A stretch of 64,000 nucleotides of DNA from Actinopolyspora mortivallis DSM 44261 (GTDB lineage Bacteria > Actinomycetota > Actinomycetes > Mycobacteriales > Pseudonocardiaceae): positions 3,460,023 to 3,524,022 of the forward strand of contig NZ_KB913024.1 of NCBI RefSeq assembly GCF_000384035.1, written 5' to 3'. The translations under genes were made by a program, and so were the position numbers. Below are positions 7,418 to 47,252 of this stretch, one piece after another (positions within the stretch are counted from its first letter, which is position 1; the number at the start of each line of letters is the position of its first letter). The notes under the pieces are model-generated. The model had not been told where the DNA came from. It was given only the letters and a program-made list of their open reading frames with translations, and searched no databases.

Positions 7418-7451
7418 GCCCGTCCCACCGAGGGGGCGGGGTGGGACGGGC
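7418..7451 (+). terminator. Perfect 12-bp stem hairpin after the SIS gene
   Basis: GCCCGTCCCACC at 7418-7429 pairs perfectly with GGTGGGACGGGC at 7440-7451 around a ten-base loop. It sits 50 bases after the SIS gene and 55 before the kinase gene. There is no T tract, as is usual in GC-rich actinomycetes. It is likely a terminator or attenuator that lowers expression of the downstream kinase gene, or an mRNA-stabilising hairpin. Confidence 0.6.
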
Positions 7452-7505
7452 ACCGCCAGGCTACGCCGGGCGACACGACCGACGAGCACGGGGGACGGAA
7501 AGAGC

Positions 7506-8528
7506 ATGACCGACACCACCGACGACACGAGACTGGTCCTCGGTCTGGACGTGGGCGGCACCTCCAGCCGCGCGGTCCTCGCCGACCTGGACTCCCGCGT
7601 GCTGGGGGTCGGACACGCGGGCGGGGGCAACCCGAACTCCCACTCACCCGAGTACGCCGTGGAACAGACCACCCGGGCCGCCCGCTCGGCGTTGTCCGGG
7701 GTCGACCGGAGACGGGTCGGTGCCGCGGTCCTGGGGATGGCCGGCATCAGCAAGCTGAGCGATCCCGGCATCGCCGGTCGCTACGAACAGGCCTGGCGCA
7801 GCCTGGGGCTAGGCTGCGAGGTGCGCACCGTCTCCGACAGCGAGGTGGCCTTCGCCGCGGGCACCCCGGAGCCGAACGGCACCGCCCTGATCGCCGGAAC
7901 CGGCTCGATCGTGGCCCGTATCGAGAACCACGCGCTGTCCCGCACGGTGGGCGGCCACGGGTGGCTGCTGGGGGACGAGGGCTCGGCCTTCTGGCTCGGA
8001 CGGGAGGCGGTGCGCGTCACGCTCCGGGCCCTCGAACGGGGGACGGGCAAGAACGACCCGCTGGTGGCCTCCGTGCTCAACGAGGTGCTCGCCGACCAGC
8101 CCAGGAACGAGTCGGACGCGCTGCTGTGCCGCCGCCTCATCTCGTTCGTCGGAGACCGGCCGGTGAAACTGGCCGAACTGGCGCCGCTGGTGACGGCCTC
8201 GGCCTCCGAGGGGGGCGGAAAGGCCCGGGGAATCGTCTCCCGCGCGGCCCACATGCTGGCCACCGACGTGTTGTCCGTCCACACGGAGTCGGACGAGGAG
8301 CCCGTGGTGCTGGCGGGCGGCCTCCTGTGCGCGGAGGGACCGTTGGGGCAGGCGGTGCGTAGCGAGCTGGCCGAGCACAGCCGGGCACAGCCGATCACGG
8401 CGGGCTCGGGGGCGATCGGGGCCGCCTGGCTGGCCGCCCGGGAACTGGTCGACGAGGGCGAGGCGCTGCGGCTGCACGAGCGGTGGTTCGGCGAACGAAC
8501 CGACTCCGTGCTCCATCGGCAGGCCTGA
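7506..8528 (+). CDS. N-acetylglucosamine kinase (BadF/BadG family)
   Basis: A 340-residue kinase of the BadF/BadG/BcrA ATPase fold, expected to phosphorylate cytoplasmic GlcNAc at O6. Visible elements are the phosphate-1 loop GLDVGGTSSRAVLAD (about 15-29), the phosphate-2 loop IAGTGSIVARI (about 131-141), the GWLLGDEGSAFWLG motif typical of GlcNAc kinases (about 155-168), and a C-terminal adenosine motif ending GSGAIGAAWLA. It follows the SIS gene in the same direction with a hairpin between them. The pair forms a GlcNAc to GlcNAc-6-P to fructose-6-P route, although no nagA deacetylase is in the window. Confidence 0.82.
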   Translation: MTDTTDDTRLVLGLDVGGTSSRAVLADLDSRVLGVGHAGGGNPNSHSPEYAVEQTTRAARSALSGVDRRRVGAAVLGMAGISKLSDPGIAGRYEQAWRSLGLGCEVRTVSDSEVAFAAGTPEPNGTALIAGTGSIVARIENHALSRTVGGHGWLLGDEGSAFWLGREAVRVTLRALERGTGKNDPLVASVLNEVLADQPRNESDALLCRRLISFVGDRPVKLAELAPLVTASASEGGGKARGIVSRAAHMLATDVLSVHTESDEEPVVLAGGLLCAEGPLGQAVRSELAEHSRAQPITAGSGAIGAAWLAARELVDEGEALRLHERWFGERTDSVLHRQA

Positions 8529-8554
8529 GGAAGTCCGAGTTCCGGTGGGGATGC

Positions 8555-9223
8555 TCAGCCGGACTCGCGCACGTGCCGTATCCCGGGGTGGTCGGCCGGC
8601 AGGGTGCGCCGCAGCACCCACCAACTCGTGGCCACGCACAACGCCACCAGCGGCCAGGTCAGCACCACCTGGGCCGCGCTCAGCGCGACCACCGCGTTCG
8701 CCGCCCACAACGGGACGAAGACCACCAGTCGTGTGAGGTACTGCCCGACCCACACCCAGCTGGCCCTGCTGTAGGCCCGCAGCAGCTCGGGGTCGCGACG
8801 CCACGTCGTCCGCTGCCCGAGCAGGGTGCCCACCACCAGGCCGAGCAGCGGCCACCGCACCGCGATGCTGGTCATCCACGCCAGTCCGCTGGCCGCGTTG
8901 GAGGCGACCCTGATCAGGTAGAAGTCGGCGGCCTGCCCGGTGCGCAGCGCGACGAGCGCCCCCACGGTCACGGCCAGCAGACTGAGCAGCACCGCGAGGG
9001 GACGTGCCCCCCGGATCAGCCGCCACGCCCCGATGACCGCCCCCACTCCGACGGCGGCGACCCCGGCGGCGGCGATCGAACCGTCGCTGAACGCCCACAC
9101 CGCCCCGAAGGCCACGGGGGGCACACTGGCGTCGACGGCGGAGGCACGCCCACCGAGCACCCGCATCAACGAATCGCGCTCGTCGGGGCCACCGGTCTCG
9201 GTGGCGGCGCTGTCACGGCTCAC
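8555..9223 (-). CDS. DUF3159 membrane protein
   Basis: A 222-residue membrane protein of the actinobacterial DUF3159 family, function unknown. About six hydrophobic helices can be placed (roughly 33-50, 52-68, 75-95, 112-135, 160-180 and 185-203). The start region, with DSLMRVLGG, and the central charged loop GQRTTWRRDPELLRAYSRASWVWVG are typical of the family as I know it. It is convergent with the GlcNAc kinase across only 26 bases. An iron-box-like sequence lies just upstream of its start. Confidence 0.82.
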   Translation of the reverse strand: MSRDSAATETGGPDERDSLMRVLGGRASAVDASVPPVAFGAVWAFSDGSIAAAGVAAVGVGAVIGAWRLIRGARPLAVLLSLLAVTVGALVALRTGQAADFYLIRVASNAASGLAWMTSIAVRWPLLGLVVGTLLGQRTTWRRDPELLRAYSRASWVWVGQYLTRLVVFVPLWAANAVVALSAAQVVLTWPLVALCVATSWWVLRRTLPADHPGIRHVRESG

Positions 9224-19679: not shown

Positions 19680-20455
19680 GATGGGCTCCTTCGTGGACGG
19701 CGATCTCGTCGCTTTGTGATCGGAACGCGTCCAAAGGTCACCCGAAAGAGTGGCCAGGTCAACTACTTGGTCACTAGTCGCCAACCACGCGACCGGGAGT
19801 CCCGTCTGACGGAACACTCCGGCGTGAGGTTGCACACCGAACAGCACGATCTCGGACATCGGCAGCCCCGCAGGAGACGACTCCCTCAGGAAGGAGCCCC
19901 GCGAGCGGCACCACACCCGCACGAACGATCCCGTCGAACACCCGCACGGAGAGGAAGAACACACGGAAAAAGCACGAGGGGAAACATCCGAACAGTTTCG
20001 AACACGAAAAGGATCAGATTGTTACCGTTCGTCCGAAACATCTCCCTTCCGAAGTCGCACACCGGGAAAAACCACCGATTCGCACGATTCGTTCCGGACG
20101 GGAAGACGGGAAACACGCCACATCCGGCAAGACTCTCGGGCGGGTTTTTCCGAGGTGTCAACCTCACCGCGACAGTTCCGGGCGGCGAGTTCTTCGAACC
20201 GTCGAGAGCGCACACACCGCGATAAATCACTCCGCTGTGGACGAACCTCCGGGGATCCAGCCCCGTGGGCAGGGGAAACAGACCGCCGTGGACAGCTAAC
20301 CTCCTGAAGATCCATCCCTTCGATCCTCACGGTGCCGCACGGACGATGGCGTGCTGTCGGCCGAACCGGGAAACGTCGATCCACGGTCGATCCACGGTAG
20401 AATAAAGTCTCTGAGAGAGAACCGACGTCGACGAGCGAGAGACTACGGGCGGTCC
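19680..20455. other. Long intergenic region with one likely promoter
   Basis: These 776 bases separate the protease (leftward) from a small membrane protein (rightward). Frames here are short or lack any support. The stretch 19900-20230 is lower in G/C than the flanking genes. The only clear structure is the pair of 11-base tandem repeats followed by a TAGAAT box at 20375-20403. Confidence 0.45.
20375..20403 (+). promoter_or_regulatory. Tandem GTCGATCCACG repeats abutting a -10 box
   Basis: GTCGATCCACG occurs twice back to back (20375-20385 and 20386-20396), followed by TAGAAT at 20398-20403, a good -10 hexamer. There is no clear -35 box, so an activator bound to the repeats is likely. The repeat unit holds TCGATCC at 11-base spacing, like known SARP sites. 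A third TCGATCC occurs at 20320. The first gene downstream is the small membrane protein at 20456. Confidence 0.5.
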
Positions 20456-20629
20456 ATGATCTGGGAAATCTTTTCCGCAAGCCTCGGATTCGTGAGCATC
20501 CTACTTTGCCTGACCTCGACTGCCCTGATTACCAGAAATCAACGTGTTACGAGGACGTCGCGGCTCGTCCTGTGGCTCGGCATCGTGGGGGTGCTCGTCA
20601 TCTCGTTCGGCAACCTCGTCATGGCCTGA
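20456..20629 (+). CDS. Small two-helix membrane protein, unknown function
   Basis: A 57-residue protein with two hydrophobic segments (about 5-22 and 34-55) joined by a short basic loop (RNQRVTRTSR). This layout is typical of small membrane hairpins. I do not recognise a family. Support comes from the promoter-like repeats and -10 box 50 bases upstream and from the clean hydrophobic pattern. Against it, no strong ribosome binding site precedes the ATG. The frame is open to 20351, but upstream sequence is unlikely to be translated because it overlaps the promoter. Confidence 0.45.
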   Translation: MIWEIFSASLGFVSILLCLTSTALITRNQRVTRTSRLVLWLGIVGVLVISFGNLVMA

Positions 20630-20737
20630 GAAAGGACACGACATGAAGTCCTCCCCTGTCGCTCACCACAGACCGCCCGCTGACACCGGAACGAACACCT
20701 TCGGCGCTCCGCGACCGCCGAGCGGCTCCGACTCTTA

Positions 20738-21640
20738 TCACGCCCGCAGCGGCTCGTCCGGCAGGTATCCCACGGCGGCGACCCCGTTCGCCGAGGCCGT
20801 GCCGTCCTGGGCGGCGTTGACGTCCGGTTCGGGACGCCACTCGGGCAGCGGGACCAGGCCGGGTTCGACCAGTTCGTATCCGGGCAGCAGTTCCCGGATC
20901 CGCTCCGGGTCACGCATGATCACCGGGGTGTGGGTGTCGCGGTAGGCGTTCTCACTGCTGTGCACCTGCTCGGCGGACATGGTCAGCGCCGTCCCGTGGG
21001 AGACGGCCAGATAGCTGCCGGGTGGGCAACTGTCCCGGTAGCGGGCCATGATCCCCACCGGGTCGTCCTCGTCGGAGACGTACGGCAGGATCGACACGGC
21101 CAACACCGCCACAGGACGGCTGAAGTCCAGCAGCTCGGTGACCCCCGGGGCGGCCAGCACGGTCTCCGGATCCCGGATGTCCGCCTGGGTGACCGTCACC
21201 CGTTCGGTTCCACGCAGTAGCTGTCCGGAGTGGGCCACCACCTCCGGCTCGATGTCCACATAGGCCACCCTGGCCTCGGGGCACCGGCGCTGGGCGACCT
21301 CGTGCACGTTGCCGACCGTGGGCATTCCCGAACCCAGATCGAGGAACTGATCAATTCCGCGACCACAGAGAAAGCGAATCATTCTTCCGAGAAAAGCGCG
21401 TGTTGCGCGCGCGTAAACCTGCACCTCGGGGACTTCCCCCAGCAACCGGTCGACGGCCTGTCGATCCACGGCGAAATTGGCCGTCCCCCCCAGGTAGTAA
21501 TCGAACATGCGTGCGGCGCTGGGGCGCTGCATGTCCACGCCCCGAGCGTACATATCCCCTGATATGCGGCTCAGTGAACCCCGGTGGGGCCCTCCGCGAG
21601 CGCCGCCACCCCGTACCCCGGGGGGCCGAACATCCGTCAT
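20738..21640 (-). CDS. DUF574-type SAM-dependent methyltransferase
   Basis: A 300-residue protein of the actinobacterial DUF574 SAM-methyltransferase family, present in many paralogues in Streptomyces and relatives; substrates are unknown. Family signs: RPSAARMFDYYLGGTANFAVDR near the N-terminus, the SAM-binding FLDLGSGMPTVGNVHEVAQ, VAYVDIEPEVVAHS, and SILPYVSDEDDP. The ATG at 21640 was chosen. The ATG at 21553 (MYARGVDMQ) is a serious alternative, because many relatives begin just before the PSAAR motif. No ribosome site is decisive. It stands alone. Confidence 0.8.
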   Translation of the reverse strand: MTDVRPPGVRGGGARGGPHRGSLSRISGDMYARGVDMQRPSAARMFDYYLGGTANFAVDRQAVDRLLGEVPEVQVYARATRAFLGRMIRFLCGRGIDQFLDLGSGMPTVGNVHEVAQRRCPEARVAYVDIEPEVVAHSGQLLRGTERVTVTQADIRDPETVLAAPGVTELLDFSRPVAVLAVSILPYVSDEDDPVGIMARYRDSCPPGSYLAVSHGTALTMSAEQVHSSENAYRDTHTPVIMRDPERIRELLPGYELVEPGLVPLPEWRPEPDVNAAQDGTASANGVAAVGYLPDEPLRA

Positions 21641-34327: not shown

Positions 34328-35827
34328 CTACCCCTCCCCGACGGTGAGGGTGCCGCGCGCGAAGGTCTCCAGGATGCGCCGGTGGGTCTGGCGCGGCAGC
34401 TGCCGGGTGCCCGGCTCGCCGAACGGGGTTCCCGGCCGGGCCGGGGCCTGGTCGAGCAGCCCGTCGATGCCGGGGCGGGTCAGCAGCAGCAGCCCGTGGG
34501 TGGCACGGGTGCAGGTGACGGCCAGCCGCCCGAAGGCCGAGTTGAACTCGTCGAGCCGCGAGGCCCCGCTCAACGGGTGGATCGCGACCGTGAGGCGGTT
34601 GGTCTGCCCCTGCCACGAGTCGACCGTGGAGGCCACGATCTCGGTCCCGGCCAGCGAGTACTTCCGCCGCAGCCGCTCGGCGAGGTCGTCGGCGTCGTCC
34701 ACCGCCTGGTTGCGCGTGGCCAGGATCGCGACCAGCGGCTCACCCGCACCGTCCCCCGGACGCGAGGTGAGCGTGTTCCCCGTCGGGGAACCCTCGGTGT
34801 CGTACTCCGCCTGTTCGAGCGCGAACCCCGAGCCGAGCAGCTCGTCGAGCAACGACTCGACCGTGCCCAGCAACGGCGGGTCGACGTCGGCGGCCTCGGG
34901 CTCGGGCAGCCCCGCCACCTCCAGCAGTGTCGGCACCCCGGTGCCGACCTGCCGCCAGACCGCCCCCGCCTCCCCCGGAAGCCCGTCGACGACCAGCCTC
35001 CTGTCGCCGGGGGCCGCCACACAGTCGAGCTCGCTCCACTGGGGATAGAACGCCCGCCACAGGTCGAGGTGACCGGCAGCCGGACGCCACACCGCCGGAA
35101 GCTCCACCGACCAGGTGCCTTCCTGGCCGTCGAAGTCGGTCGGCCACGCGCGGTACGGGTTGAACCCCGCATCGCCCCGCCACGGGTTCCGCCCCGCCTC
35201 CAGCGGCGGGAGCTGTCCGACGTCACCGACCCCGACCGTGAGCGGGGAGGCCGGGGCGACCCGGTCGAACAGGTGGTGCGGAAGCTGCCAGGCCTCGTCG
35301 ACGAACAACGCGTCGAACACCGTCTCCCCGTTGTGTCCGGCACCCACGTGTTCGCCCAACCGGTCCAGCTCACCGGGTGTGCCGAGCCGGTGGGAGGTGG
35401 AGACGACCACCCGGCACTCGGGCGGGATCTCGGCGGCGGTGGTGGCCACGCTCGTCCGCGACCTCGCCTGCTCGGGCACCTCCTCGCGTCGTCTGCCGCT
35501 GACGAACAGGCACACCTGATCCTCTCCCAGCAGTCCACCGAGGGAGGCCGCCAGCGGGTGGATCTGCTTGTTCGTGAAGGCGACGACCCCCACCCGGCGG
35601 CAGTCGGGGTGTTCGACGGCCTCGACCACCAGGTTCCTCAGGACGAACGACTTGCCGGCACCGGCGGCGGCCTTGATCAGCAGACGTTCCAGCGGTGCCT
35701 TCCCGGACAGGGCCCGGCGCAGCACCTCGGTCGCCTCCTCGGCCACCACGGCGTTGCCCCTCGCCGCCCGAGCGTGGTGGACACGCCCGCTCCCCGGGGA
35801 GGCCGGTTGGGAGAACTCGACCGTCAC
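34328..35827 (-). CDS. SF1 (Upf1-like) AAA helicase, second gene of helicase-nuclease pair
   Basis: A 499-residue superfamily 1 helicase. Motifs in order: motif I AAAGAGKS (53-60), motif Ia VVAFTNKQ, motif II FVDEAW (175-180), motif III GDVGQLPPL (201-209), motif IV near LVAILATRNQ, motif V VDSWQGQTN (about 410-418) and motif VI VTCTRATHGLLLL (about 455-467). The Q and arginine-finger positions are retained, so it should be active. It starts at GTG four bases after the stop of the upstream gene, so the two proteins are surely made together. It resembles the compact Dna2/Upf1 type without extra domains. The function is likely nucleic-acid processing or defence. Confidence 0.82.
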   Translation of the reverse strand: MTVEFSQPASPGSGRVHHARAARGNAVVAEEATEVLRRALSGKAPLERLLIKAAAGAGKSFVLRNLVVEAVEHPDCRRVGVVAFTNKQIHPLAASLGGLLGEDQVCLFVSGRRREEVPEQARSRTSVATTAAEIPPECRVVVSTSHRLGTPGELDRLGEHVGAGHNGETVFDALFVDEAWQLPHHLFDRVAPASPLTVGVGDVGQLPPLEAGRNPWRGDAGFNPYRAWPTDFDGQEGTWSVELPAVWRPAAGHLDLWRAFYPQWSELDCVAAPGDRRLVVDGLPGEAGAVWRQVGTGVPTLLEVAGLPEPEAADVDPPLLGTVESLLDELLGSGFALEQAEYDTEGSPTGNTLTSRPGDGAGEPLVAILATRNQAVDDADDLAERLRRKYSLAGTEIVASTVDSWQGQTNRLTVAIHPLSGASRLDEFNSAFGRLAVTCTRATHGLLLLTRPGIDGLLDQAPARPGTPFGEPGTRQLPRQTHRRILETFARGTLTVGEG

Positions 35828-35831
35828 GACA

Positions 35832-38537
35832 TCACTCCAGGTCCTCCAGTGTCATGTGATCCGGCGGTGCGGTCACCGGCCCGGCCGTCACCTCCCCCAC
35901 GGGTGTGCCCGCGGCGGGAACCTCGAAGGCGTCGGAGTCCACGAGCGGCGGCCACACCCGCGGGTTGAGTTCCCCGCGAGCGCGTCGTTCGGCGAGCCGG
36001 TCGGAGTGCTCGGCCTCGACGTCCTCGTGCGGGCGGCAACAGTGCTCGTGGGCCTCGGGATCCTCGGCGTGGGAGTGCGGCTCGCACGTCGGCGTGGGGG
36101 CCGAGCAGTCGTCGACCGGCGGCCGGTCGACCGGCAGGAAGCGGTTGCCCGTGTTCCCCGAGAACCAGGCGAAGTCGGCGACCACCAGCCGGTCCCCGGC
36201 CGCCAGCTCGGCAACGGTCTCCGGTGTCCACACGAAACGCCGGGGTGTCCCGTCGTCGACGCTGGCCAGCGGGCCGATCGACATCCCCGAGAACCGAACG
36301 TTGCTCTTCTGCACCGTGAGTTCGACACCGGGGTCCTCGACGCGGGCCGTGCCGTTGACGTGCAGCAGCACGATCCGGGTGCCGTCGCCGATCCGGCGGG
36401 AGTCGACGTCCAGCACCACCGGACCGACCGAGACCACGGTGGCGACGGCGAGCTCGCGGGTGCCGGCGTCGGTGGCCAGCTCCTCGGCGGCCCGGGGGTT
36501 CGCCAGCGCCAGCAACCGCTGGTGACACTTGTCGTCCCGCTCGATGGCGGTGACCATCCTGTTGCGCCACGAGCGGTGCGTCCGCCCGAAACGCACCAGG
36601 TCGGAGGCGTGCAACGCCAGCCGCCCGCGCCACACCCGCTGGGCGACCCGTTCGATCTCCCGGTGGACCCGGCGTACCCGCGAATCCGGCACGGCCGCCA
36701 GGAAGTCCAGGGCACGGTCGAGGATCTCGCGTTTGTAGTCGAGCTCCTCGGTCACCAGCGCCGCGTACCGGCTTCCCGACTCCCCTCGGGAGTCCACTGC
36801 GGTCAGTGCCTCGTGCAGGGAGTCCGAAGTCCGGTTGGTCAGCCGGGCACCGGGAGTGTGGGGGCGGGCTTCGACCGCGTCCTCGATCTCCCTCGGTTTC
36901 ACGGGCCCGTCGATGACGGACTCGGCCCAGATCACCAGGTAGTCCAGGCGCTGGGAGGCCACGACGGGGCCTCCGGCCACCACCTGCCGCGCGAGAGCGG
37001 CCCGCAGGTCGACCAGCGGACAGCGCAGGCTCATCGCCCGGGCGCGGTCCTCCTCCAGCAGGAAGGACACGGCCGTACGCGCGGGCTCCTCCAACGGGGG
37101 AGGAATCTCGGCGGGCTCCCCGTCGAACGTCCGGGGCTCACGCCCCATCCGGACGTCCCGTTCCCAGCGCAGCCTGCTGAGTTCGACACCGGCCAGGTTG
37201 TCGGCGATCGAGACGAGAACATCGGCGGTCGGCTGGTCCGGCACGACCAAGTGCACCGGATCCGGAACGTCTCCGCCCGCCTCGCGCCGCTCGGTCATCG
37301 CCGCGGACAGTTCCGCTCCGAGCAGCCGCATCACCTCACGACGGGTCCACGGGGACTGCGGTTCGTCGAACACGGTGCTCTCCCACGGCTCGCGTCCCCC
37401 GGCGGTGACGCGTCGCGTGGCCATCCCGTACACGCCGAGCGCGGCGGAGTCCGACTTGGCCAGCACCACGTTGACGGTGCCCGGCTCCCCGGCCTGGTCC
37501 ACACGCCGTTGTCCGGTGCGGCGGGCGACTCCCTCCAGCGTGGCGGTGACGGTCTCGACCAACGAGACCGGGGCGGCACCTTCGTCCGTGCCGTGCACTA
37601 GCCCGAGGAGCCGAGGGCGTGCCTCAGCGGGGACTCCCAGCTCCACCAGCAGGTCACTCGGGTCGGTGGAGGTGCGGAGTTCGTCGCGGCAGTAGGAGAA
37701 CAGCGGGCACCTCGGGCAGGTCTCCGGGTCGAAGGTGGCCCGCAGCCGGGCGACGTGCTCGGAAAGGTTCTCCGCGGTCACCGGCGGGGTCCGCGCGGAC
37801 TCCCGACGTCGCTGCGCCAGCCGCGTCCGCACCTCCGCCCGGTGGTCGTCGAGCGCTTCCACCAACACCTCGGGCTGGAGGAAGGCGTTGCGGGGCACGG
37901 CGAGCGCACCGTGGGAGTGCAGCGACATCCCGCTCGGCAGGCGCAGTCGTGCCTCGACGGACTCGGCCGCCGAGGCCACCTGGAGGAACCCCTTCAGCAG
38001 CCGGGCGTCGTCGATGCGGGAACGCAGCCGCTCGTAGTCCTTGGCCACGCCGAGGACCAGTCGGGAACCGTCGCCGCCAGCGGCGACGACCACCGCGAAG
38101 TCGGGGGCGACGTGGGGGGCCTCCTGCTCGTCGGCGGGTTCGGAGTCCGGCAGCGCGAGCCCGTGCAGCAGCGTGGCCGCGCCGTGGGAAGTGGCCCGTG
38201 TGTGGGCGTGGGCGAGCGACCCGGCCGTGTCGGCCGCGTCGCCGTTCGCGTCGGTGGTCACGACCTCGGTGGGACGGTCCATCCCGAGCGCGCCGAGCGT
38301 GGTGGTGACCGTCCGCCGGGAGAACCGCGTGTCGCGCACCAGGTGGGCGAAGGTCATCGCCCGCATCCACCGGGCCTGGGGAACGCTGCCCGCGTCGTCG
38401 GGGGAGCCGAGTTCGGCGGCGAGTTGTCGGCGGGTGCGCCCGACCACGAGCGGGTCGGTCCCCCGGAAGCGCGCGCAGGCCAGATGGGCGGAGGAGGCGA
38501 GCTCACTCGCCGTCCGGACGAGGGCGGGGTCCGCCAT
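35832..38537 (-). CDS. Large protein with Fe-S PD-(D/E)XK-like nuclease domain, unknown role
   Basis: A 901-residue protein with no clear family name. An N-terminal cysteine (HLACARF, about 21) and a later triplet CPRCPLFSYC (about 274-283) reproduce the one-plus-three cysteine layout of Cas4, AddB and Dna2 nucleases. Between them lie VAPDFAVVV and LVLGVAKDYERL, followed by LLKGFLQVA, a possible PD-(D/E)XK core in which the acidic residue of ExK is not obvious. The remaining 600 residues lack recognisable motifs apart from a cysteine/histidine patch near 855-875 (HSHAEDPEAHEHCC). The ATG at 38537 has GGGGG at the right distance. It precedes the helicase with four bases between. Confidence 0.72.
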   Translation of the reverse strand: MADPALVRTASELASSAHLACARFRGTDPLVVGRTRRQLAAELGSPDDAGSVPQARWMRAMTFAHLVRDTRFSRRTVTTTLGALGMDRPTEVVTTDANGDAADTAGSLAHAHTRATSHGAATLLHGLALPDSEPADEQEAPHVAPDFAVVVAAGGDGSRLVLGVAKDYERLRSRIDDARLLKGFLQVASAAESVEARLRLPSGMSLHSHGALAVPRNAFLQPEVLVEALDDHRAEVRTRLAQRRRESARTPPVTAENLSEHVARLRATFDPETCPRCPLFSYCRDELRTSTDPSDLLVELGVPAEARPRLLGLVHGTDEGAAPVSLVETVTATLEGVARRTGQRRVDQAGEPGTVNVVLAKSDSAALGVYGMATRRVTAGGREPWESTVFDEPQSPWTRREVMRLLGAELSAAMTERREAGGDVPDPVHLVVPDQPTADVLVSIADNLAGVELSRLRWERDVRMGREPRTFDGEPAEIPPPLEEPARTAVSFLLEEDRARAMSLRCPLVDLRAALARQVVAGGPVVASQRLDYLVIWAESVIDGPVKPREIEDAVEARPHTPGARLTNRTSDSLHEALTAVDSRGESGSRYAALVTEELDYKREILDRALDFLAAVPDSRVRRVHREIERVAQRVWRGRLALHASDLVRFGRTHRSWRNRMVTAIERDDKCHQRLLALANPRAAEELATDAGTRELAVATVVSVGPVVLDVDSRRIGDGTRIVLLHVNGTARVEDPGVELTVQKSNVRFSGMSIGPLASVDDGTPRRFVWTPETVAELAAGDRLVVADFAWFSGNTGNRFLPVDRPPVDDCSAPTPTCEPHSHAEDPEAHEHCCRPHEDVEAEHSDRLAERRARGELNPRVWPPLVDSDAFEVPAAGTPVGEVTAGPVTAPPDHMTLEDLE

Positions 38538-38693
38538 ACGCAACCCCCAGTGGCAAGTCGGGACCGCTCAACCGAGCGCGGGACGACAGGGCAGGACCGT
38601 CGAGTGTAAGCGGTCCCGATCACGCGGAACTCGACCGCGGGTGTGCGGGTGTGTCCCTTCGGGACTGCCGAACGCGGATCACCCCGTGTGCTG

Positions 38694-38896: not shown

Positions 38897-39580
38897 TCAC
38901 GGCACACGTTCGAGCATGGTCAGCGGCAACGATTCACTCCAACTCTTCGGGGACCTCCAGAGGAACGAGTGCGCAGCCCAGTTTGTCGTCGCACCGTTGG
39001 TGACCACTGAGTGCAGCAGGCCGTTGTAGACGATATCCCACATGTCACGGTCCTCCTGCAACTCATCCACTTTTACCTGCACCTTGCGCACCCCACTGTC
39101 CTTGAGGTCGAGGTGCATCGACATCCCACGGTGACGGACTTTGATGTCGGTGAGCTCGTACAGCAGCACCCACGCGCGACCGACTTTCAACCAATCGACT
39201 CCGACCGCCGGATCGACCAAGCGGAAGGTCCCGTACATGCCCAGTCCAGTCGCAGAGAGGAAGAGCCACATCCAGGGAATGCTGAGCCAGTCGTAGTCGA
39301 AACCCTGCCGGAAACCGATCAGGATTCCGATCACCATGGAGTCAGCGACGCCCATGCCGATCGCGTAGCGCCGGCTGTGCCGATACCACTCCAACACCGG
39401 CCCCTGTCCAGGCGGCGGCGAGGGTTTGCGCCATTGGCTGCGGTCGCGTTCCGAATCCTGGTCCTTCGGCGGCTTGTCCCCCTTGAAAAATCCCGGCGCC
39501 CGTGGAGGGCGTGGCTCGCCAGTCCACGTATCCGGACGGGGCTGCAGCTGCTCCGGCACCACTGGATTCTCCTCAGACAT
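38897..39580 (-). CDS. Two-helix membrane protein with PH-like cytoplasmic domain, unknown
   Basis: A 227-residue protein: a proline- and charge-rich N-terminus (about 1-65), two membrane segments (about 72-92 and 98-118), then a soluble domain (about 125-227) with alternating strands (VLLYELTDIKVRHRGMSMHLDLKD split, VRKVQVKVDELQEDRDMWD) that looks like the PH-like domains found on mobile-element proteins of actinomycetes. No close family is recognised. A GACGAGGA precedes the ATG. It shares strand and spacing with the next small gene (12 bases), so the two are one operon inside the island. Confidence 0.65.
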   Translation of the reverse strand: MSEENPVVPEQLQPRPDTWTGEPRPPRAPGFFKGDKPPKDQDSERDRSQWRKPSPPPGQGPVLEWYRHSRRYAIGMGVADSMVIGILIGFRQGFDYDWLSIPWMWLFLSATGLGMYGTFRLVDPAVGVDWLKVGRAWVLLYELTDIKVRHRGMSMHLDLKDSGVRKVQVKVDELQEDRDMWDIVYNGLLHSVVTNGATTNWAAHSFLWRSPKSWSESLPLTMLERVP

Positions 39581-39592
39581 TCCTCGTCCCGC

Positions 39593-39865
39593 CTACTCGC
39601 CCGTCAGCAGACTCTCCGCCTCGGTCGCAAGGAACTCCCCCGCCATACTCCCGAGCGCTCCACCGACCACGGTGCCAACACCCGGGCAGATCGCTGAGCC
39701 GAGCGCGCCCCAAGGGGGCTGAACAGCGAGATTCATCACCGCAAACACCGCCGAGACGGAGGGAAGTGAGGGCAGCCGACCCCTTCCATCGGACAGCGTA
39801 ACGAACGAAGAGCCATTCTCAGTAACAACAACGTAGGAATATGCCATATTTGCATTTATCATCAA
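39593..39865 (-). CDS. Small glycine-zipper protein, unknown
   Basis: A 90-residue protein, upstream of and in line with the two-helix protein. It starts with a strand (YSYVVVTENGSSFVTL) and ends with a glycine-zipper helix (ALGSAICPGVGTVVGGALGSMAGEFL split in two halves), a pattern found in bacteriocins, holins and membrane anchors. No family recognised. Neither possible ATG (39865 or 39847) has a ribosome binding site, and the AT-rich DNA upstream may hold a promoter for both directions. Cys at about 60 is the only one. Confidence 0.5.
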   Translation of the reverse strand: MMINANMAYSYVVVTENGSSFVTLSDGRGRLPSLPSVSAVFAVMNLAVQPPWGALGSAICPGVGTVVGGALGSMAGEFLATEAESLLTGE

Positions 39866-40076
39866 TTTTTACTTTTTGAACATTTTGTACGATTTCTCTT
39901 ATATTTTGCAAATATTCACCCGTTCGAACCATTGCGAACTTCTATTTGACGCGATTAGATTTATCCACTGCGCCCACTGGGAGGATTCGAGGAAAAATAA
40001 AGACGTAGACGAACTGGGGGGTCTTTACTCAGGAACTACCCGAAGGTAGCGATCAACACTTTCTTTTGGGGACAAC
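39866..40076 (+). promoter_or_regulatory. AT-rich divergent promoter and leader of the ThiF operon
   Basis: This is the most AT-rich stretch of the window. TTGCGA (39932-39937) and TAGATT (39956-39961), 18 bases apart, make a fair sigma-70-type promoter pointing right, leaving a leader of about 110 bases before the ThiF ATG. Within the leader a good GGGAGG (about 39979) is not followed by an ATG, GTG or TTG at the right distance. I therefore find no convincing precursor peptide, although a short open frame from a TTG is possible. Confidence 0.35.
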
Positions 40077-40955
40077 ATGAATCAGCGCAAGAGGTACACA
40101 GCCGAGTACGACGACGCCTTTTACTGGAAGCGCGTACGACGAAACCTTGGATGGCTCGGTAACACCATTGACGAACAGCGCAAGAACCAACTGAAATTAC
40201 GCGACGTCGTCGTAGGGGTCGCGGGTTGCGGCGGAATCGGCGGAGCGATAGCGGAACGTCTTGCCAGGATGGGTGTTCGCCACCTGAAGGTTGCGGATCC
40301 GGACACTTTTGAAGTCTCCAACATCAACCGTCAGTACGGCGCGGAAGTGGATAACTTGGGGCGAAACAAGGCCGAGGTTACCGCCGAGCTGATCTATCAG
40401 ACAACGCGGGACGTCAATATCGATGTGTTCCCGGAGGGGATCACCGCCGAGACAGTCGACGAGTTCGTCGAGGGATGTGACTACATCCTGGACAAGATAG
40501 AACTCTACGAAATCAATAGCCGCTATAAGCTCCACCGGTCGTTCCGTCGTTCCGCTCGTTGCAACTTCATGGCGACGACACCGGTATTCGGAAACCGGAC
40601 ATTCTTTTTCAAGTGGACACATGATTCGATGCCAGCAGAGGAGTATTTCGGGATAGAGCCCGGATCCGAAATGAACGAGGAGAACGCGCGGAGACTCATC
40701 AGCAGGTTTATTCCCGAGATGCCCGAATTTCCGAGCTCTGATGCCCTCGAGAAATGGTTCATCGAGAACATGACATGCCCCATCTTCGCCGCGACGCCGC
40801 CGTTGGCCCAGGGAATGCTGGCCTCTCGACTCGGTCTAGCGATCACCGGACTCGATCAACTTCCTGGCGTTCAGCAACTGCCCGCAACTCCCGGTTATTC
40901 AATGATCGACACGGAAAAGTGGATCATGAAGACGGTTGAAGGAAAATGGTGGTGA
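40077..40955 (+). CDS. ThiF/E1-like adenylyltransferase
   Basis: A 292-residue enzyme of the ThiF/MoeB/E1 fold that activates a carboxylate with ATP. The nucleotide loop is GCGGIG (50-55), then KVADPDTFEVSNINRQ (71-86). Arg85 and Lys98 are 13 apart, as are the matching Arg73 and Lys86 of MoeB, and Asp139 fits the essential MoeB aspartate. There is no CxxC zinc pair and no evident catalytic cysteine loop, which argues against ThiF/MoeB sulfur relay and is more like MccB-type enzymes that adenylate a peptide. Its last 10 bases overlap the next gene. Codons are noticeably more A/T-rich than those of the chromosome. Confidence 0.82.
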   Translation: MNQRKRYTAEYDDAFYWKRVRRNLGWLGNTIDEQRKNQLKLRDVVVGVAGCGGIGGAIAERLARMGVRHLKVADPDTFEVSNINRQYGAEVDNLGRNKAEVTAELIYQTTRDVNIDVFPEGITAETVDEFVEGCDYILDKIELYEINSRYKLHRSFRRSARCNFMATTPVFGNRTFFFKWTHDSMPAEEYFGIEPGSEMNEENARRLISRFIPEMPEFPSSDALEKWFIENMTCPIFAATPPLAQGMLASRLGLAITGLDQLPGVQQLPATPGYSMIDTEKWIMKTVEGKWW

Positions 40956-41932
40956 AACTGATGTCTCATCCCACGATTGCGGGAGTTCCCCGACTCCCCA
41001 CCCCCGGGCACGCCGTCTCCTTGGATGAGTGGTCTGGGGCAGACCTAGAGGCGTTGTTCGAGTTCGCCGACTGGATCAGTGAGCAGGACATTCAGATAGT
41101 CTCCAGGCTGGCGCCAGGAGTCACGATCGCGACCTGTTTCTTTCAAACGAGCACGCGTACACGACTCAGTTTCGAAGCAGCGGCTGCGAGGCTCGGTGGA
41201 ACATCGCTCGGGTTCGCGGACGCCAGCACCACCCGATCTGGTGACTTTTTCGAGGAATCGCTCGAAGACACGGTCCGCGTCGTTGGTAACTACGTGGACC
41301 TGCTCGTCCTCAGGCACACTGATGACGATGCGGGCCACCGGGCTGCGTCGGTGTCGCCGGTGCCAGTCGTCAGTGCGGGCTCCGGAGCGAAAGAACACCC
41401 GACGCAGGGGATGCTCGACACATGGATGATCAAGCGGACGCTCGGGGCGCTGGAGGGTGCACGTGTCGGCATTGCCGGTGATCCCGACGCACGGACAACG
41501 CGCTCCATCCTGACGACGCTATGCAAGTTCGACATCGCCGAGGCCGTATTCCTCGTCCCCCCTGGTGGGGCTGTACCGGACGACGAGCTGTCCACCATGG
41601 CCGAATGCGGCGTCGTCCATAGCTTCGCGTTCTCCGCGGAGGATCTCGTGCAACGGGTCGACGCGGTTACCATGATCCCGTTCCAGCTTCCATCGTTCTA
41701 CGTCTCGTCGGGAACGCAGTCGGAACGAGAAGCGTTGGATCCGAATCTGGTCTTCTCCCGCCGTCTCCTGACCGGTGTCGGCAAGAATGTGCACGTCTTC
41801 CATGCAGGTCCTCGGCTCGGCGAGCTGCCGATCGAAACGGACGACCTCGCCAATGTGCACTACTTCGCCGGGGTTCGGGCCGGCACTGCGCTACGGGCGG
41901 CACTGATCTGTCAGCTCATCGCCCCGAAGTAG
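40946..41932 (+). CDS. Divergent aspartate carbamoyltransferase-like enzyme
   Basis: A 328-residue protein of the aspartate/ornithine carbamoyltransferase fold. Carbamoyl-phosphate residues are kept: STRTR (69-73), Arg123 in VLRH, HPTQ (151-154), and Arg183 after GDPD. The aspartate side is changed: the 80s-loop lysine region reads TRSGDFFEES instead of KKGET; TRVQ, which holds the aspartate-binding arginine, is IPFQ (244-247); and HPLPR is HAGPR (286-290). It should therefore still use carbamoyl phosphate but pass it to another acceptor. The ATG overlaps the ThiF gene's end, suggesting translational coupling; ATG at 40961 is an alternative. No pyrimidine gene is nearby. Confidence 0.83.
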   Translation: MVVKLMSHPTIAGVPRLPTPGHAVSLDEWSGADLEALFEFADWISEQDIQIVSRLAPGVTIATCFFQTSTRTRLSFEAAAARLGGTSLGFADASTTRSGDFFEESLEDTVRVVGNYVDLLVLRHTDDDAGHRAASVSPVPVVSAGSGAKEHPTQGMLDTWMIKRTLGALEGARVGIAGDPDARTTRSILTTLCKFDIAEAVFLVPPGGAVPDDELSTMAECGVVHSFAFSAEDLVQRVDAVTMIPFQLPSFYVSSGTQSEREALDPNLVFSRRLLTGVGKNVHVFHAGPRLGELPIETDDLANVHYFAGVRAGTALRAALICQLIAPK

Positions 41933-41950
41933 TTCCGGGTTGGCAACCGG

Positions 41951-41998
41951 AGGGTGGGCTGTCCATTCGTTCCGTTGAGAGACGGACAGTCCACTCCC
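41951..41998. terminator. Imperfect hairpin between convergent genes
   Basis: AGGGTGGGCTGTCC (41951-41964) can pair with GGACAGTCCACTCCC (41984-41998) with small bulges. It sits between the carbamoyltransferase gene and the convergent ArsR gene. Confidence 0.55.
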
Positions 41999-42007
41999 CC
42001 ACCCATT

Positions 42008-42826
42008 CTAAGCGGAGGAGCTGCTCCGCCAGGAGGTTCCTGCGGGGGTGGTCGTGAGGCCGAGCTCCTCGCAGAGGAACTCCGCTCCTGCATCGGTCAG
42101 TGTGACGGCTCGCTGTCGCGGTTTGCGGTGCACCCAGCCGTGTTCGAGGAAGCTCGTGGCGAGAGCGGCACCAAGTCGACCTGCCAGGTGATGTTGTTGC
42201 TCGCTCCAGTCCATGCAACACCGCAGCAGCGGTCTGCGGTTCTTCGTTCCGGCGAGGGCGTCGAGATCCACTCCCAAGCGGGGAAGAACGTAATTGGCTT
42301 CGGGCCCCAGCTGGTACGGTTGCTGCCGCACCGGCGCCGACAGGCGATCGCCGTCACGCCGCTGTGGCGTACCGCGACCGTCGGCGCGGAGGAGTGCGCG
42401 CTGTTCCAGCAAGGCGGCCAGGAGACTCACGCCGAGCCCACCAGCCAGGTGATCGTAGCACATTCGTCCTGCCCGGAGGGCTTGAGCGCGGGTGCCCTGC
42501 CGCAGGGACCGGATCGGGGTGGTCGGCGCAAGGCGGGCCAGGCTCTCCAGAGCGGTGGCGATGTCTGTACTGGCCAGGCGGTAGTACCGGTGGCGACCAC
42601 TGCTTTCCACGGAGAGCAGACCCCCGCCGAGCAGCTTGTTCAGGTGGGCACTCGTCGCCTGGCGCGAGAGCCCGGCCTCGTCGGCCAGCACCGACGCCGG
42701 GAGCGCACGTCCGTCGGCCAGGGCCATGAGCACTTTCGCGCGTGCGGGATCGGCGAGCAGCGTCGCCACAACGCTGATATCCGCGTCCCCACCGGCACGC
42801 CCAGGCACACCCGACAGCTCACTCAT
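42008..42826 (-). CDS. ArsR-family regulator with extended C-terminal domain
   Basis: A 272-residue ArsR-type winged-helix repressor. The DNA-binding domain is at about 18-95 (ISVVATLLADPARAKVLMAL, LADEAGLSRQATSAHLNKLL, GLLSVESSGRHRYYRL). The long C-terminal part, found in the DUF-tailed subgroup that pairs with MFS pumps, contains RAGRMCYDHLAGGLGV and a final winged-helix-like segment. No classical metal-binding CxC in the recognition helix, so it likely senses a small organic ligand. Divergent from the MFS gene (65 bases apart), which it should repress. ATG at 42826; the frame extends upstream by 11 codons. Confidence 0.85.
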   Translation of the reverse strand: MSELSGVPGRAGGDADISVVATLLADPARAKVLMALADGRALPASVLADEAGLSRQATSAHLNKLLGGGLLSVESSGRHRYYRLASTDIATALESLARLAPTTPIRSLRQGTRAQALRAGRMCYDHLAGGLGVSLLAALLEQRALLRADGRGTPQRRDGDRLSAPVRQQPYQLGPEANYVLPRLGVDLDALAGTKNRRPLLRCCMDWSEQQHHLAGRLGAALATSFLEHGWVHRKPRQRAVTLTDAGAEFLCEELGLTTTPAGTSWRSSSSA

Positions 42827-42891
42827 GGCACACATTCTCGCGTACGGACGGTTCACCACACCTGGAACTGTTCCCGCGGCACGCTGCCACC

Positions 42892-44292
42892 ATGTCGATC
42901 AATCTCGAAGCTCCGCCGCGAACCCGGCACCGTGGACTCATACTGGCCACGATGTGCGTAGGAATGTTCCTGGTACAGCTCGACGTCACCGTGGTCAACG
43001 TCGCGCTGCCGCACATGCGGCTCGGCTTGTCGGCCACGCTCGAACAGCAACAGTGGATCGTCGACAGCTACGCCGTGGTCCTAGCCAGTCTGCTGCTCGT
43101 GGCCGGCGACGTGGGAGACCGCTTCGGGCACCGACGCGTCGTGGTCACCGGGCTGGGCGTGTTCGCCGCTGCCTCGATGCTGTGCGCGACCACGCCCGTG
43201 ATCGAGATGTTGCTGGCCGGACGTGCGATCCAGGGTATCGGCGCGGCCCTGCTCCTGCCCTCAACACTCGCGGTCATCACCCACGTCTTCCAGAACAGCG
43301 CCGAACGCGCGAAAGCCGTCGGCGTGTGGGCCGGCGTGTCTGCTCTGGCCCTTCCCGCCGGTCCGTTGCTGGGCGGGGTGCTCGTCGCAGCCCTGGGATG
43401 GCGCACGATCTTCTGGATCAACATCCCGATCGTGGCCCTCGCCCTGCCTGCGACCCTGTGGCTGGTCGCCAAACCCACCGCACCCGAGACCCGTCGCCGG
43501 CTGGATCTTCCCGGCTCGGCCCTGGCCGCGATCACGCTGGCCGCGCTCGTCTACACCGTGATCACCGTCGGACATGCGGGCATGGGAACCGAAGCGTGGA
43601 TCAGCGCGGGCATCAGCCTCGTAGCTCTAGTGTGCTTCCTACTGCGGGAACGTTCGGCGAAGGCGCCAATGCTGCCGCTTTCGCTGCTGCGGGTTCCGGC
43701 CTTCGCCGGCGCTAACCTCGTCGCCGCCGCGATGAACCTCGTCGGCATCGGCACCGTGTTCGTCACCACGCTGTACCTGCAGAGCGTCCAACACCACTCC
43801 CCGCTGGTCGCCGGAGCGCTGATGCTTCCGCTCTTCGCCCCTCTCGCCGCGCTTTCCCCCATCACCGGAAGGCTCACAGCCCGCTACGGAGCGCGACTGC
43901 CGATGACAGCAGGACTGCTGGTCGGTTCAGCCGGGTCGCTCACCCTGACCCGCCTCACCCCCACCAGTCCCTACCTCGCTCTGCTTCCCGTGCTCATCGG
44001 CCTCGGCATCGGGATGGGGCTGCTCACCGCCGCCGTCGTCTCAGCGGCAGTCGGCGCCGCCCCCGCAGAACGCGCTGGACTGGCCAGCGGCATCAACAAC
44101 GCCGCCCGCCAAGCCGCCGGCGCCATGGGCATCGCCCTCTACGGCGCCGTTGCCGGGAACCCCGGACAGAGCGAGATTTTCACCGACCACCTGCACACGA
44201 TCGGCATGCTCGCCTGCGCTCTCTGGATCGGCGCCCTCGCCTTCACGTGGGTCACCGTCCCCCGTCCCGAACAACAGGCAGCGACGACGTGA
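42892..44292 (+). CDS. MFS drug exporter, DHA2 (14-helix) family
   Basis: A 466-residue major facilitator of the 14-helix drug/proton antiporter group. Motif D1 LDVTVVNVALP in helix 1 (about 30-40), motif A GDVGDRFGHRR (about 71-81) and motif C GVSALALPAGPLLGG in helix 5 (about 147-161) are intact, so it should be active as a proton-driven exporter. The divergent ArsR regulator controls it by all appearances. It may export the product of the ThiF-carbamoyltransferase genes or a drug from outside; neither can be shown here. Confidence 0.88.
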   Translation: MSINLEAPPRTRHRGLILATMCVGMFLVQLDVTVVNVALPHMRLGLSATLEQQQWIVDSYAVVLASLLLVAGDVGDRFGHRRVVVTGLGVFAAASMLCATTPVIEMLLAGRAIQGIGAALLLPSTLAVITHVFQNSAERAKAVGVWAGVSALALPAGPLLGGVLVAALGWRTIFWINIPIVALALPATLWLVAKPTAPETRRRLDLPGSALAAITLAALVYTVITVGHAGMGTEAWISAGISLVALVCFLLRERSAKAPMLPLSLLRVPAFAGANLVAAAMNLVGIGTVFVTTLYLQSVQHHSPLVAGALMLPLFAPLAALSPITGRLTARYGARLPMTAGLLVGSAGSLTLTRLTPTSPYLALLPVLIGLGIGMGLLTAAVVSAAVGAAPAERAGLASGINNAARQAAGAMGIALYGAVAGNPGQSEIFTDHLHTIGMLACALWIGALAFTWVTVPRPEQQAATT

Positions 44293-45342: not shown

Positions 45343-45418
45343 TGGAGCCGCTGAGGGGACTCGAACCCCTGACCATCCGCTTACAAGGCGGGTGCTCTAC
45401 CGACTGAGCTACAGCGGC
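45343..45418 (-). tRNA. tRNA-Thr (anticodon TGT)
   Basis: A 76-base cloverleaf with encoded CCA: acceptor GCCGCTG/CAGCGGC, D arm GCTC...GAGC, anticodon loop CTTGTAA (T33, anticodon TGT, reading ACA), T arm AGGGG-TTCGAGT-CCCCT and discriminator T. The anticodon stem has one C-A mismatch at the 27-43 pair. It forms the right border of the island, and its 3' half is repeated at 38694-38740. Confidence 0.93.
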
Positions 45419-45809
45419 ACGCGTGTCTCAACGCACGCCCCTCTCATCCTAATCCCCCACCGGAGACCTCTCGGGCACCGGTCCCGCCACGACGACCTTC
45501 TCGCCGACCTCGCCGAGGCCTCCGAACGGGCATCCCACGATGCGGTGAATCGCATTCTCGTCGTACCGGGAACGCGTACGCTCGGGTGTCGGGGCGAGAC
45601 ACCCTCCCTCGTTCCTTTCCACGGAACGACGTGCACGAACACACGTTCGACCCCTCCACTTCCCGCCCCACCAAGGCGATCGGTCGCCGAAACCGGTGAC
45701 GGACGACACCATTCGCAAGTGCAACAGTGCGCCCGTGGAGGCCGATTCCAGGGGTGAACAGCGTGATCGACGTTCCACGCGCACGGCCAGGCAAGGAGGC
45801 ACAACAGCA
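45419..45809. other. Intergenic region, no gene seen
   Basis: The 390 bases between the tRNA-Thr (minus) and thrE (plus) contain open frames on both strands but no domain, and the thrE ribosome site near 45793 marks the true start of the next gene. The promoters for the tRNA and thrE should both be here. No repeat or operator recognised. Confidence 0.4.
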
Positions 45810-47252
45810 GTGGGAATCACGCAGCGCGCACGTGGTGTGCTGCGGCGGCGCGAACCTTCCGAAACCGTCGGGACCCGCAACGTCGTCTACGGCCCCTCGC
45901 TGCCGGACGACTCCACGGTCCACCTCGTCCTGGAGCTCGCCCTGCGCATCGGGGAGATCCAGATGGCCAGCGGCGTGGGCGCCTCCGACGTCAGCGCCAC
46001 CATCACCAGCGTCACCGACGCCTACGGCCTCCCCCACTGCGAAGTGGACGTGATCTACACCTCCATCACGGTCTCGTGCTACCGGGGAACCGAGAACCTG
46101 CCCATCACCTCCCTGCGGGTGGTCCGCAACCGTTCGCTGGACTACACGCGCCTGGCCGAGGTCGAGAAGCTGATCCGTCGCATCACCTCCGGCGAACTCA
46201 CCACCTCGGACGCCTACGCCGAGCTGGAGACCATCGCCAGGGCCACCCACCCTTTTCCCCGCTGGGTGGCCACCCTGGCCTGGGCCGGGATGGCGGCCGC
46301 GCTGGCGGTGCTGCTCAGCGGAGGCACCATCCCCCAGCTCCCCCTGATCGCGGCCGGGGCCACCGCCCTGGTCGACCGGGTCGGCCGGTTCCTCAACCAA
46401 CGCGGCCTGCCCATCTTCTTCCAGCAGACCGTCGGCGGGGCCGTCGCCACCAGTGTCGCCCTGGCCTTCTACGCCACCGGCGTGCTGCCCAACGCGGCAC
46501 TCGCGGTGGCCGCCAACATCATCGTGCTGCTGTCGGGCATGACCGTGGTGGGCTCCATGCAGGACGCCATCACCGGCTACAACGTCACCGCGGCCGGGCG
46601 CATCGCCGAGCTGGCGCTGACCTCGGCCGGACTGATCTCCGGCGTGGTGCTCTCGCTGTACCTGGCCCAGCGCATCCTGCCTCCCGAAACGCTCGGCGGC
46701 GGGCTGGACCTCGAACAGGCCGGGGGCGGTGTGGTGCTGCTGCCCGGTCTGCTCAAACTTCCGTTGCAGGCCATGGCGGGAGCCGCCACCTCGGCCTGCT
46801 TCGCGCTGGCCAGCTACTCCCCACCCCGCCCGCTGGTCGCGGCCGGGGCCGCCGGGGCCATCGCGGCCAGCATCTTCCAGCTCATGACGCTGGTCCAGGT
46901 CAACACGATCCTCGCCTCGGCGGTGGCCACCACCATCGTGGGTTTCGTGGGCGGGGTGGTCGCCCGCAGACTGCGCATCCCCGCCCTGGTGGTCGCGGTC
47001 TCCGGTGTGGCCCCGCTGCTGCCGGGACTGGCCACCTACCGGGCGCTGTACGAACTCTCGGTGCAGGGCAACCCCACCGGGCTGTCCACCCTGATGGGAG
47101 CCGGGGCCACCGGTCTGGCCCTCGGCGCCGGCGTGGTGCTCGGTGAGTTCCTCTCCCAGCCCGTGCGGACCGGCCTCGGCCGACTGGAACGTCGCATGTC
47201 CGGACCGCGCATGTCCGGACCACTGCGCCCCACCGAAAGGAGGCTGGACTGA
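45810..47252 (+). CDS. Threonine/serine exporter (ThrE family)
   Basis: A 480-residue exporter of the ThrE family, in which both halves are fused. The N-terminal cytoplasmic part (about 35-175) includes VLELALRIGEIQMASGVGASDV and the conserved ITSVTDAYGL; the membrane domain has about ten helices from 185 on, with the typical motif of the second half GVAPLLPGLATYRALYEL. It exports threonine and serine, driven by the proton gradient, as in corynebacteria. The GTG at 45810 is placed by AAGGAGG ten bases before; an upstream ATG at 45696 would add an unconserved leader. It sits next to the tRNA-Thr by coincidence. Confidence 0.87.
   Translation: MGITQRARGVLRRREPSETVGTRNVVYGPSLPDDSTVHLVLELALRIGEIQMASGVGASDVSATITSVTDAYGLPHCEVDVIYTSITVSCYRGTENLPITSLRVVRNRSLDYTRLAEVEKLIRRITSGELTTSDAYAELETIARATHPFPRWVATLAWAGMAAALAVLLSGGTIPQLPLIAAGATALVDRVGRFLNQRGLPIFFQQTVGGAVATSVALAFYATGVLPNAALAVAANIIVLLSGMTVVGSMQDAITGYNVTAAGRIAELALTSAGLISGVVLSLYLAQRILPPETLGGGLDLEQAGGGVVLLPGLLKLPLQAMAGAATSACFALASYSPPRPLVAAGAAGAIAASIFQLMTLVQVNTILASAVATTIVGFVGGVVARRLRIPALVVAVSGVAPLLPGLATYRALYELSVQGNPTGLSTLMGAGATGLALGAGVVLGEFLSQPVRTGLGRLERRMSGPRMSGPLRPTERRLD

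Follow-up and report, generated by a model that had tools for sequence, protein, structure and literature searches.

Investigation of a 64,000-nucleotide stretch of the Actinopolyspora mortivallis DSM 44261 genome (the window; positions 3,460,023 to 3,524,022 of contig NZ_KB913024.1, the genome forming one 4.23-Mb contig) revealed a cassette of four genes, which we interpret below as a candidate unit for making and exporting a toxin. The gene encoding an E1/ThiF-like adenylating enzyme (hereafter E1; 40077..40955, + strand, 292 amino acids (aa), zinc CxxC pairs absent) shares 10 nucleotides (nt) with the gene of a carbamoyltransferase (CT) resembling aspartate carbamoyltransferase (40946..41932, + strand, 328 aa). 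Downstream lie an ArsR-like winged-helix regulator of the cassette (42008..42859, - strand, 283 aa; NF033788, 56.1 bits against a cut-off of 55) and, divergent from it across a 32-nt gap, a DHA2-type exporter of the major facilitator superfamily (MFS; 42892..44292, + strand, 466 aa; TIGR00711, 232.3 bits against 230.2).

The AT-rich leader of the E1-CT operon (39866..40076, + strand) holds a single promoter-like site at 39876-39905 (scored at two positions one base apart; the mean in shuffled 4.8 kb was 0.6) and, judging by its sequence, appears to hold no peptide precursor. The GC content of the bins spanning 39001-42000 is 0.581, 0.547 and 0.629 in a window mostly near 0.70, the other bins lying at 0.656-0.759 except for 1-1000 (0.560) and 20001-21000 (0.628). 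A preliminary description of this DNA had already pointed to the ten-base overlap in lower-GC DNA and to one likely promoter, both of which agree with the open reading frame (ORF) coordinates, the GC bins and the single promoter-like site; its unit of two genes and an exporter is also borne out, and the regulator was the member that it missed.

The two enzymes of the overlapping gene pair

Regarding the first enzyme, the window E1 belongs to the E1/ThiF superfamily (PF00899, 105.1 bits against a cut-off of 28.1) and retains the GCGGIG motif, with R85, K98 and D139 invariant in 25 of the 25 aligned E1 sequences and no CxxC pairs seen by eye, so that the ATP site stands as first described. It scores below the cut-offs of ThiF (TIGR02356, 72.3 of 275.25 bits) and MoeB (NF004281, 54.1 of 266), and is thus not placed among the sulfur-transferring ThiF/MoeB enzymes; it likewise misses those of PRK08223 and of TcdA (NF011696, 53.7 of 304). 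TcdA chains are its best sequence matches in the PDB (E about 1e-12), and the top structural row is AclA (9egb), with substrate in the complex, tied with ThiF and MoeB; a literature search for AclA (9egb) found no paper. The residue following D139 varies by the type of partner enzyme (K, Q, E, M), a difference that follows the tree and alone proves nothing. The window E1 is 74% identical to the S. violens copy and about 60% identical to the copies on Staphylococcus plasmids; in our proposal it uses ATP to activate nitrite or else a carboxylate.

On E. coli PyrB numbering, the window CT keeps S52, T53, R54, T55, R105, H134, Q137 and R167, and the residues for carbamoyl phosphate (STRT, R105, HPTQ) are present in every cassette CT that covers them. 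Unlike PyrB, the window lineage has lost R229, replaced by proline (TRVQ to IPFQ), and K84, and has HAGPR in place of HPLPR, all as previously described except for the numbering; the predicted carbamoyl-phosphate site is thus intact and the aspartate side-chain site lost, and the lost residues speak against aspartate as the substrate. R167 is presumably the arginine that binds a carboxylate. The family scores place the protein among the carbamoyl-phosphate-dependent transferases (PF02729, 117.7 bits against 29.9), with the second domain, PF00185, under its cut-off (22.3 of 29.4) and the aspartate carbamoyltransferase family TIGR00670 missed (175.6 of 236.95).

Two other carbamoyltransferase genes of the host group with PyrB-like and ArgF-like rows in the tree, and the window CT is therefore not the housekeeping copy. 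It falls in a nine-row clade (support 100/97) together with proteins from Staphylococcus and from a gammaproteobacterial metagenome-assembled genome (MAG), a clade separate from those PyrB-like and ArgF-like rows of the host. The branch of E. coli PyrB comes out close to the cassette CT clades, with weak support (82/80), and there are two further cassette CT lineages. An ordinary reading, in which a stray pyrB paralogue happens to lie beside a ThiF-family gene, would agree with the plasmid records, which annotate the pair as aspartate carbamoyltransferase and ThiF family; it was rejected on this tree and on the co-occurrence with E1 in three phyla described below, and its probability is practically negligible.

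Distribution, members and decay of the cassette

A scan of one genome per species (84,980 species) gave 45 loci; these, and the plasmid and other loci examined, carry here the labels (L003 and so on) used across the analysis. Thirty of the scan loci form a close set (L009-L034, L036, L038-L040), in which E1 is broken in four (L031, L036, L040 and L038). In all 26 close loci with an unbroken E1 a transferase lies in the same gene run, namely CT in 11, a formyltransferase (FT) in 13 and a GNAT acyltransferase in two; in L014 an MFS gene stands between E1 and CT, and in L025, near a contig end, the FT matches only partly. L038 was excluded from the unbroken set, E1 and FT each matching in two frames there (6986-8643), which in a MAG may reflect either decay or an assembly error. 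An ArsR-like gene is present in 27 of the 30 close loci, and the partner type tracks the E1 tree, with 3 changes against 14.4 in shuffles. As gene calls in the high-GC loci are rough, some ORFs being antisense shadows, homology searches were relied on.

E1 and CT were found together in 12 of the 45 scan loci, including a decayed one, and in both Staphylococcus plasmid records examined, across three phyla; the possibility that homologues of the two never co-occur elsewhere, on which the idea of a dedicated system would have fallen, is thereby set aside. Among 41 genomes, those of the host and 40 relatives, only that of the host had E1 at E<=1e-20. In sampled surveys at the set cut-off, 6 of 392 Streptomyces had E1, four of them already in the scan. 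Among 396 Actinomycetota the host alone had it, and among 299 Bacillota and 299 Pseudomonadota it turned up once each, in the genome on which the survey was centred. The family is rare and patchy in these surveys, as expected of a mobile unit.

A plasmid search detected E1 at about 60% identity in 14 Staphylococcus records. Two of these, an 8.5-kb S. epidermidis plasmid (L003) and an S. pasteuri record (L004), carry an MFS pump, an ArsR-like regulator, E1 and CT, and because the same four gene families adjoin there, the regulator and exporter of the window belong to the unit. The window regulator aligns with those of L003, L004 and L005 at 29-38% identity, the MFS genes of L003, L004, L005 and L006 are 24-40% identical to the window exporter, and MFS genes occur in most mapped relatives. 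Scan loci, plasmids and the CT tree thus uphold the earlier view of a dedicated system: the genes stay together, the carbamoyltransferase is divergent and the exporter is one of the members.

On Corynebacterium and Lactiplantibacillus plasmids FT replaces CT. Neighbouring genes of the Corynebacterium cassette (L005) either overlap or stand 30 nt apart, which leaves no room for a precursor gene, and a peptide precursor within the cassette was rejected on this ground, though one encoded elsewhere is conceivable. This bears on a microcin-C-like reading, the leading idea of the preliminary description, by which a Trojan-horse nucleotide would arise when E1 adenylates either an amino acid or a ribosomal peptide; moreover, MccB rows align with the window E1 only from residue 87-90 on, the earlier MccB region being uncovered, and the alkylation repair described below would be pointless, so that we consider this reading highly improbable and see no support for peptide adenylation.

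Neighbourhood mapping covered 37 genomes or records. Thirteen of the 37 mapped clusters, with all three partner types (CT, FT and GNAT) among them, encode a CapA/PGA_cap-like protein (L055 17632-18750 and 12 other genomes), and 10 encode a Rid-family protein. A gene like those of the ICL/PEP-mutase family was detected in three unrelated E1 clusters (L008 9802-10596, L017 4503-5435 and L060 400-1188), two of which have alkylation-repair genes.

Seven cassettes are decayed. In L036, L104, L105 and L106 the E1 match is confined to the first 118 residues and no FT is left; L107 retains the first 81 residues of E1 and the last 14 of FT; in L040 (Corynebacterium) the first 112 residues of E1 and residues 136-220 of FT overlap in one frame; and in L031, a Streptomyces draft genome, the E1 match ends after residue 181 and CT starts near residue 76, in mixed frames, the CapA gene also lying in two frames. 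Regulator and pump are kept in all seven and match over nearly their full length, with identities of 97-99.5% in six and, in L031, of 78-80% to a different genus. The gene for Tag is kept in all five decayed lactobacilli (97-99%). At least four deletions have hit the synthesis genes and spared the pump, which is expected if E1 and its partner make a toxic product against which pump and Tag protect.

Another view would take the cassette for a resistance device in which an antibiotic from outside is the substrate of E1 and the acyltransferase and the pump is inducible. The ArsR-type regulator beside an MFS gene, the small mobilizable plasmid that bears the Staphylococcus cassette and the PLSDB label of the cassette MFS as an efflux-pump relative agree with such detoxification; however, the loss of E1 and partner with retention of pump and regulator in the seven decayed cassettes is unlike what selection would do to a detoxifying enzyme, and the carbamoyl-phosphate synthase, CreE and CreD of relatives suggest synthesis, which makes it very unlikely. 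A DNA-alkylating toxin with self-protection is, by comparison, a probable explanation.

Accessory genes and the proposed product

Homologs of CreE were detected in 8 of the 37 mapped neighbourhoods (L020, L022, L034, L055, L056, L059, L060 and L064) and of CreD in seven, all of these except L060, with CreD for L020, L022 and L034 coming from the extended flanks L057, L058 and L061; they accompany CT and FT types alike. According to PMC11705231, CreE and CreD produce nitrous acid from aspartate. The CreD-like protein reaches 586.7 bits to the nitrosuccinate lyase family NF052556 (just under the cut-off of 650) and 450 bits to CreD 5xny, and the CreE-like protein 637 bits to 8cp2, which is named an FAD-binding protein. 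Among 29 genomes there are 16 strong CreE-like matches, and seven loci have one by E1 against 0.04 expected, related clusters not being independent and at least four lineages having been counted. Cyanase genes are present in L055, L056 and L059, where no nitrite-activating candidate other than E1 was found among the recognised genes, and carbamoyl-phosphate synthase genes in L059, L066 and L067. L072 has an HDO-cupin gene directly 5' of E1, and L071 has, after E1 and M20, a fusion of a molybdopterin oxidoreductase with CysJ that could be a nitrate reductase; a Pantoea HDO match led nowhere. A CreE-like gene also lies elsewhere in the host genome (L054 8976-10796), 47% identical to the S. rimosus one.

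A variant reading accepts a toxin that alkylates DNA and limits nitrite and N-N chemistry to the extended Streptomyces-type clusters, the core product being another alkylator. The minimal cassettes without CreE and CreD, the Tag gene accompanying minimal FT cassettes and the additional enzymes of the extended clusters are in its favour; the association of CreE and CreD with both acyl types, and the three cyanase clusters without another recognised nitrite activator, tell against it, and we hold it to be quite unlikely.

Alkylation-repair genes were detected in 5 of the 37 mapped neighbourhoods (L008, L018, L059, L066 and L071). On the Salmonella plasmid L008, co-directional genes for Ada/AlkA_N and MGMT run into a GNAT-E1-methyltransferase series; in L017/L066 an AlkA-like gene overlaps the PEP-mutase-like gene upstream of E1, CT, MFS and carbamoyl-phosphate synthase; and in Limosilactobacillus gastricus (L018, L103) Tag follows the pump. 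An AlkA-like gene lies about 6 kb from E1 in L071, and an AlkB-like gene adjoins the cyanase in L059. The Tag-like gene of the L. plantarum plasmid L006 (6637-7175, - strand) seems broken, its match being split over two reading frames, and no Tag was found in the search of L019.

The reading that we favour, with a little less than even confidence, is that of a horizontally moving cassette making and exporting a small DNA-alkylating toxin, probably an N-nitroso urea or amide. Because R167 is kept and R229 and K84 are lost, CT, with its intact site, would move the carbamoyl group of carbamoyl phosphate onto the amine of a small monocarboxylic amino acid, and in the sister cassettes FT or GNAT would play this part with a different acyl group. 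In a second and least certain step, E1 would use ATP to activate nitrite, a task that falls to acyl-CoA-ligase-like enzymes in diazo pathways, and would nitrosate the nitrogen that bears the acyl group. The resulting N-nitroso urea or amide would be a masked diazo compound. The MFS pump would then export this product under the control of the ArsR-like regulator. N-nitroso ureas and amides decay to DNA-alkylating diazo or diazonium species, the urea type yielding cyanate as well, and such a breakdown of the cassette product would fit the presence of Tag, AlkA, AlkB, MGMT and cyanase. N-N chemistry in the product we judge about evenly balanced, and E1 as the nitrosating enzyme is the boldest step and a doubtful one.

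Several points weigh against this proposal. To our knowledge, E1-fold enzymes all act on carboxylates, so nitrite would be a new substrate for them. The other 15 of the 45 scan loci, with weaker or partial E1 matches, had no CT, FT or GNAT partner by homology searches. The chemistry of the window cassette is transferred from relatives: CreE and CreD occur together in 7 of the 37 neighbourhoods and the window cassette has neither, which places it outside the CreE/CreD N-N clusters, and nitrite or repair genes were absent in the mapping from the cassettes of the window, of L003 and L004 (Staphylococcus), of L063 and of L073, where nitrite would therefore come from the host or the surroundings. 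No CreD match was found in 20 kb around the host CreE-like gene, CreD not having been searched host-wide. Other enzymes of the extended clusters could be the true nitrite users; the HDO-cupin protein of L072 had no SznF match in the PDB sequence search, and the molybdopterin enzyme of L071 scores higher as formate dehydrogenase (537.7 bits) than as nitrate reductase NasC (463.1), both under the cut-off. As for repair, Tag, AlkA and AlkB exceed the Pfam cut-offs and stay below the NCBIfam ones, and the AlkB-like gene of L059 is 12 kb from E1. A control that counted the AlkB, HhH-GPD and MGMT families, but neither Tag nor the Salmonella plasmid, found 209 genes in the roughly 186 Mb of 29 genomes. 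The excess near E1 was mild: three repair genes up to 13 kb away where 0.88 would be expected (P about 0.06), and two up to 7 kb away where the expectation is 0.48 (P about 0.09). This control is sobering, and the weight of the repair argument is in the operon-like cases and the decayed cassettes.

The first of these points is also among the grounds for the main rival, in which E1 adenylates the carboxylate of an N-carbamoyl, N-formyl or N-acyl amino acid, leading to closure of a hydantoin or azlactone or to joining with a nucleophile, as in TcdA, which acts on a ureido acid and makes the hydantoin of ct6A. The PDB matches to TcdA, the carboxylate-activating habit of the fold, the retained R167 in CT and the top structural row, AclA with its substrate, all lean this way. 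Yet the nitrite genes found with both acyl types, the cyanase and the alkylation repair would go unexplained, DNA alkylation is not expected of hydantoins or azlactones, and the score of 53.7 of 304 for the TcdA family is far from assignment; we consider this rival unlikely.

In its widest form, the favoured proposal of a nitroso toxin is that a branch of the E1 fold has turned into an ATP-dependent nitrosating enzyme, which adenylates nitrite and nitrosates a freshly carbamoylated, formylated or acylated amine, such that four genes suffice for a masked diazo genotoxin, and that the cassette, travelling in part on plasmids, has reached staphylococci, lactobacilli, corynebacteria and soil actinomycetes and left behind derivatives that hold immunity only. 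We put this forward tentatively. If true, some skin- and gut-associated bacteria carry small plasmids for a DNA alkylator, a genotoxin made without the usual assembly-line enzymes; the E1 fold gains new chemistry, a nitrosating enzyme using nitrite, ATP and a housekeeping amine; and the plasmid-borne Tag genes of lactobacilli are explained as immunity. Of the interpretation first given for this locus, the dedicated system thus has support and peptide adenylation lacks it, and FT and GNAT variants, nitrite supply, cyanase, alkylation repair and exporter-keeping decay had not been foreseen.

Surrounding genes and known systems

Regarding the surroundings of the cassette in the window, a 90-aa ORF with a glycine-rich C-terminal half and no Pfam or NCBIfam match (39593-39865, - strand) diverges from E1, and the region 34328-38543 (- strand) encodes a helicase-like protein (AAA_19) and after it one of 903 aa with no family match above cut-off, PADLOC giving no match. 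A tRNA-Thr gene (45343-45418, - strand) lies about 1 kb downstream of the exporter and may be an island landmark, and near it is a gene for a ThrE-like exporter (45696-47252). A phage origin of the locus was rejected, the viral scan giving just five weak partial matches, as was an E1-E2 phage defence, the PADLOC E1-E2 models covering only part of protein P0001 and nothing else of such a system being found in six window proteins.

Among the matches listed in open PubMed Central, which leaves most subscription papers outside, no paper was found on a single system combining an E1/ThiF enzyme with either a carbamoyltransferase or nitrosation. The nearest pathways are those of diazo and N-N compounds with CreE and CreD, such as cremeomycin (PMC11705231), whose homologues occur in several sister clusters and with which the proposal shares ATP-dependent activation of nitrite; the cassette differs in having an E1-fold enzyme instead of an acyl-CoA-ligase-like one, in its proposed substrate, an acylated amine, and in a four-gene form without CreE and CreD. 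Streptozotocin and SznF (PMC10849742) offer an N-nitrosourea alkylator like the one predicted here, and L072 has the HDO-cupin architecture; in contrast, the urea of the cassette would come via the carbamoyltransferase and not from a guanidine, and the L072 protein lacks a match to SznF. TcdA, the t6A dehydratase, is the closest PDB sequence relative of the window E1, and the cassette differs from it in gene company and in missing the family cut-off by far. Microcin C shares an E1-like enzyme (MccB) and an MFS exporter (MccC) in a compact cassette; here, however, no peptide precursor was found and the N-terminal region of MccB is unaligned, and whereas MccE and MccF provide the immunity of microcin C, DNA repair genes stand in their place.
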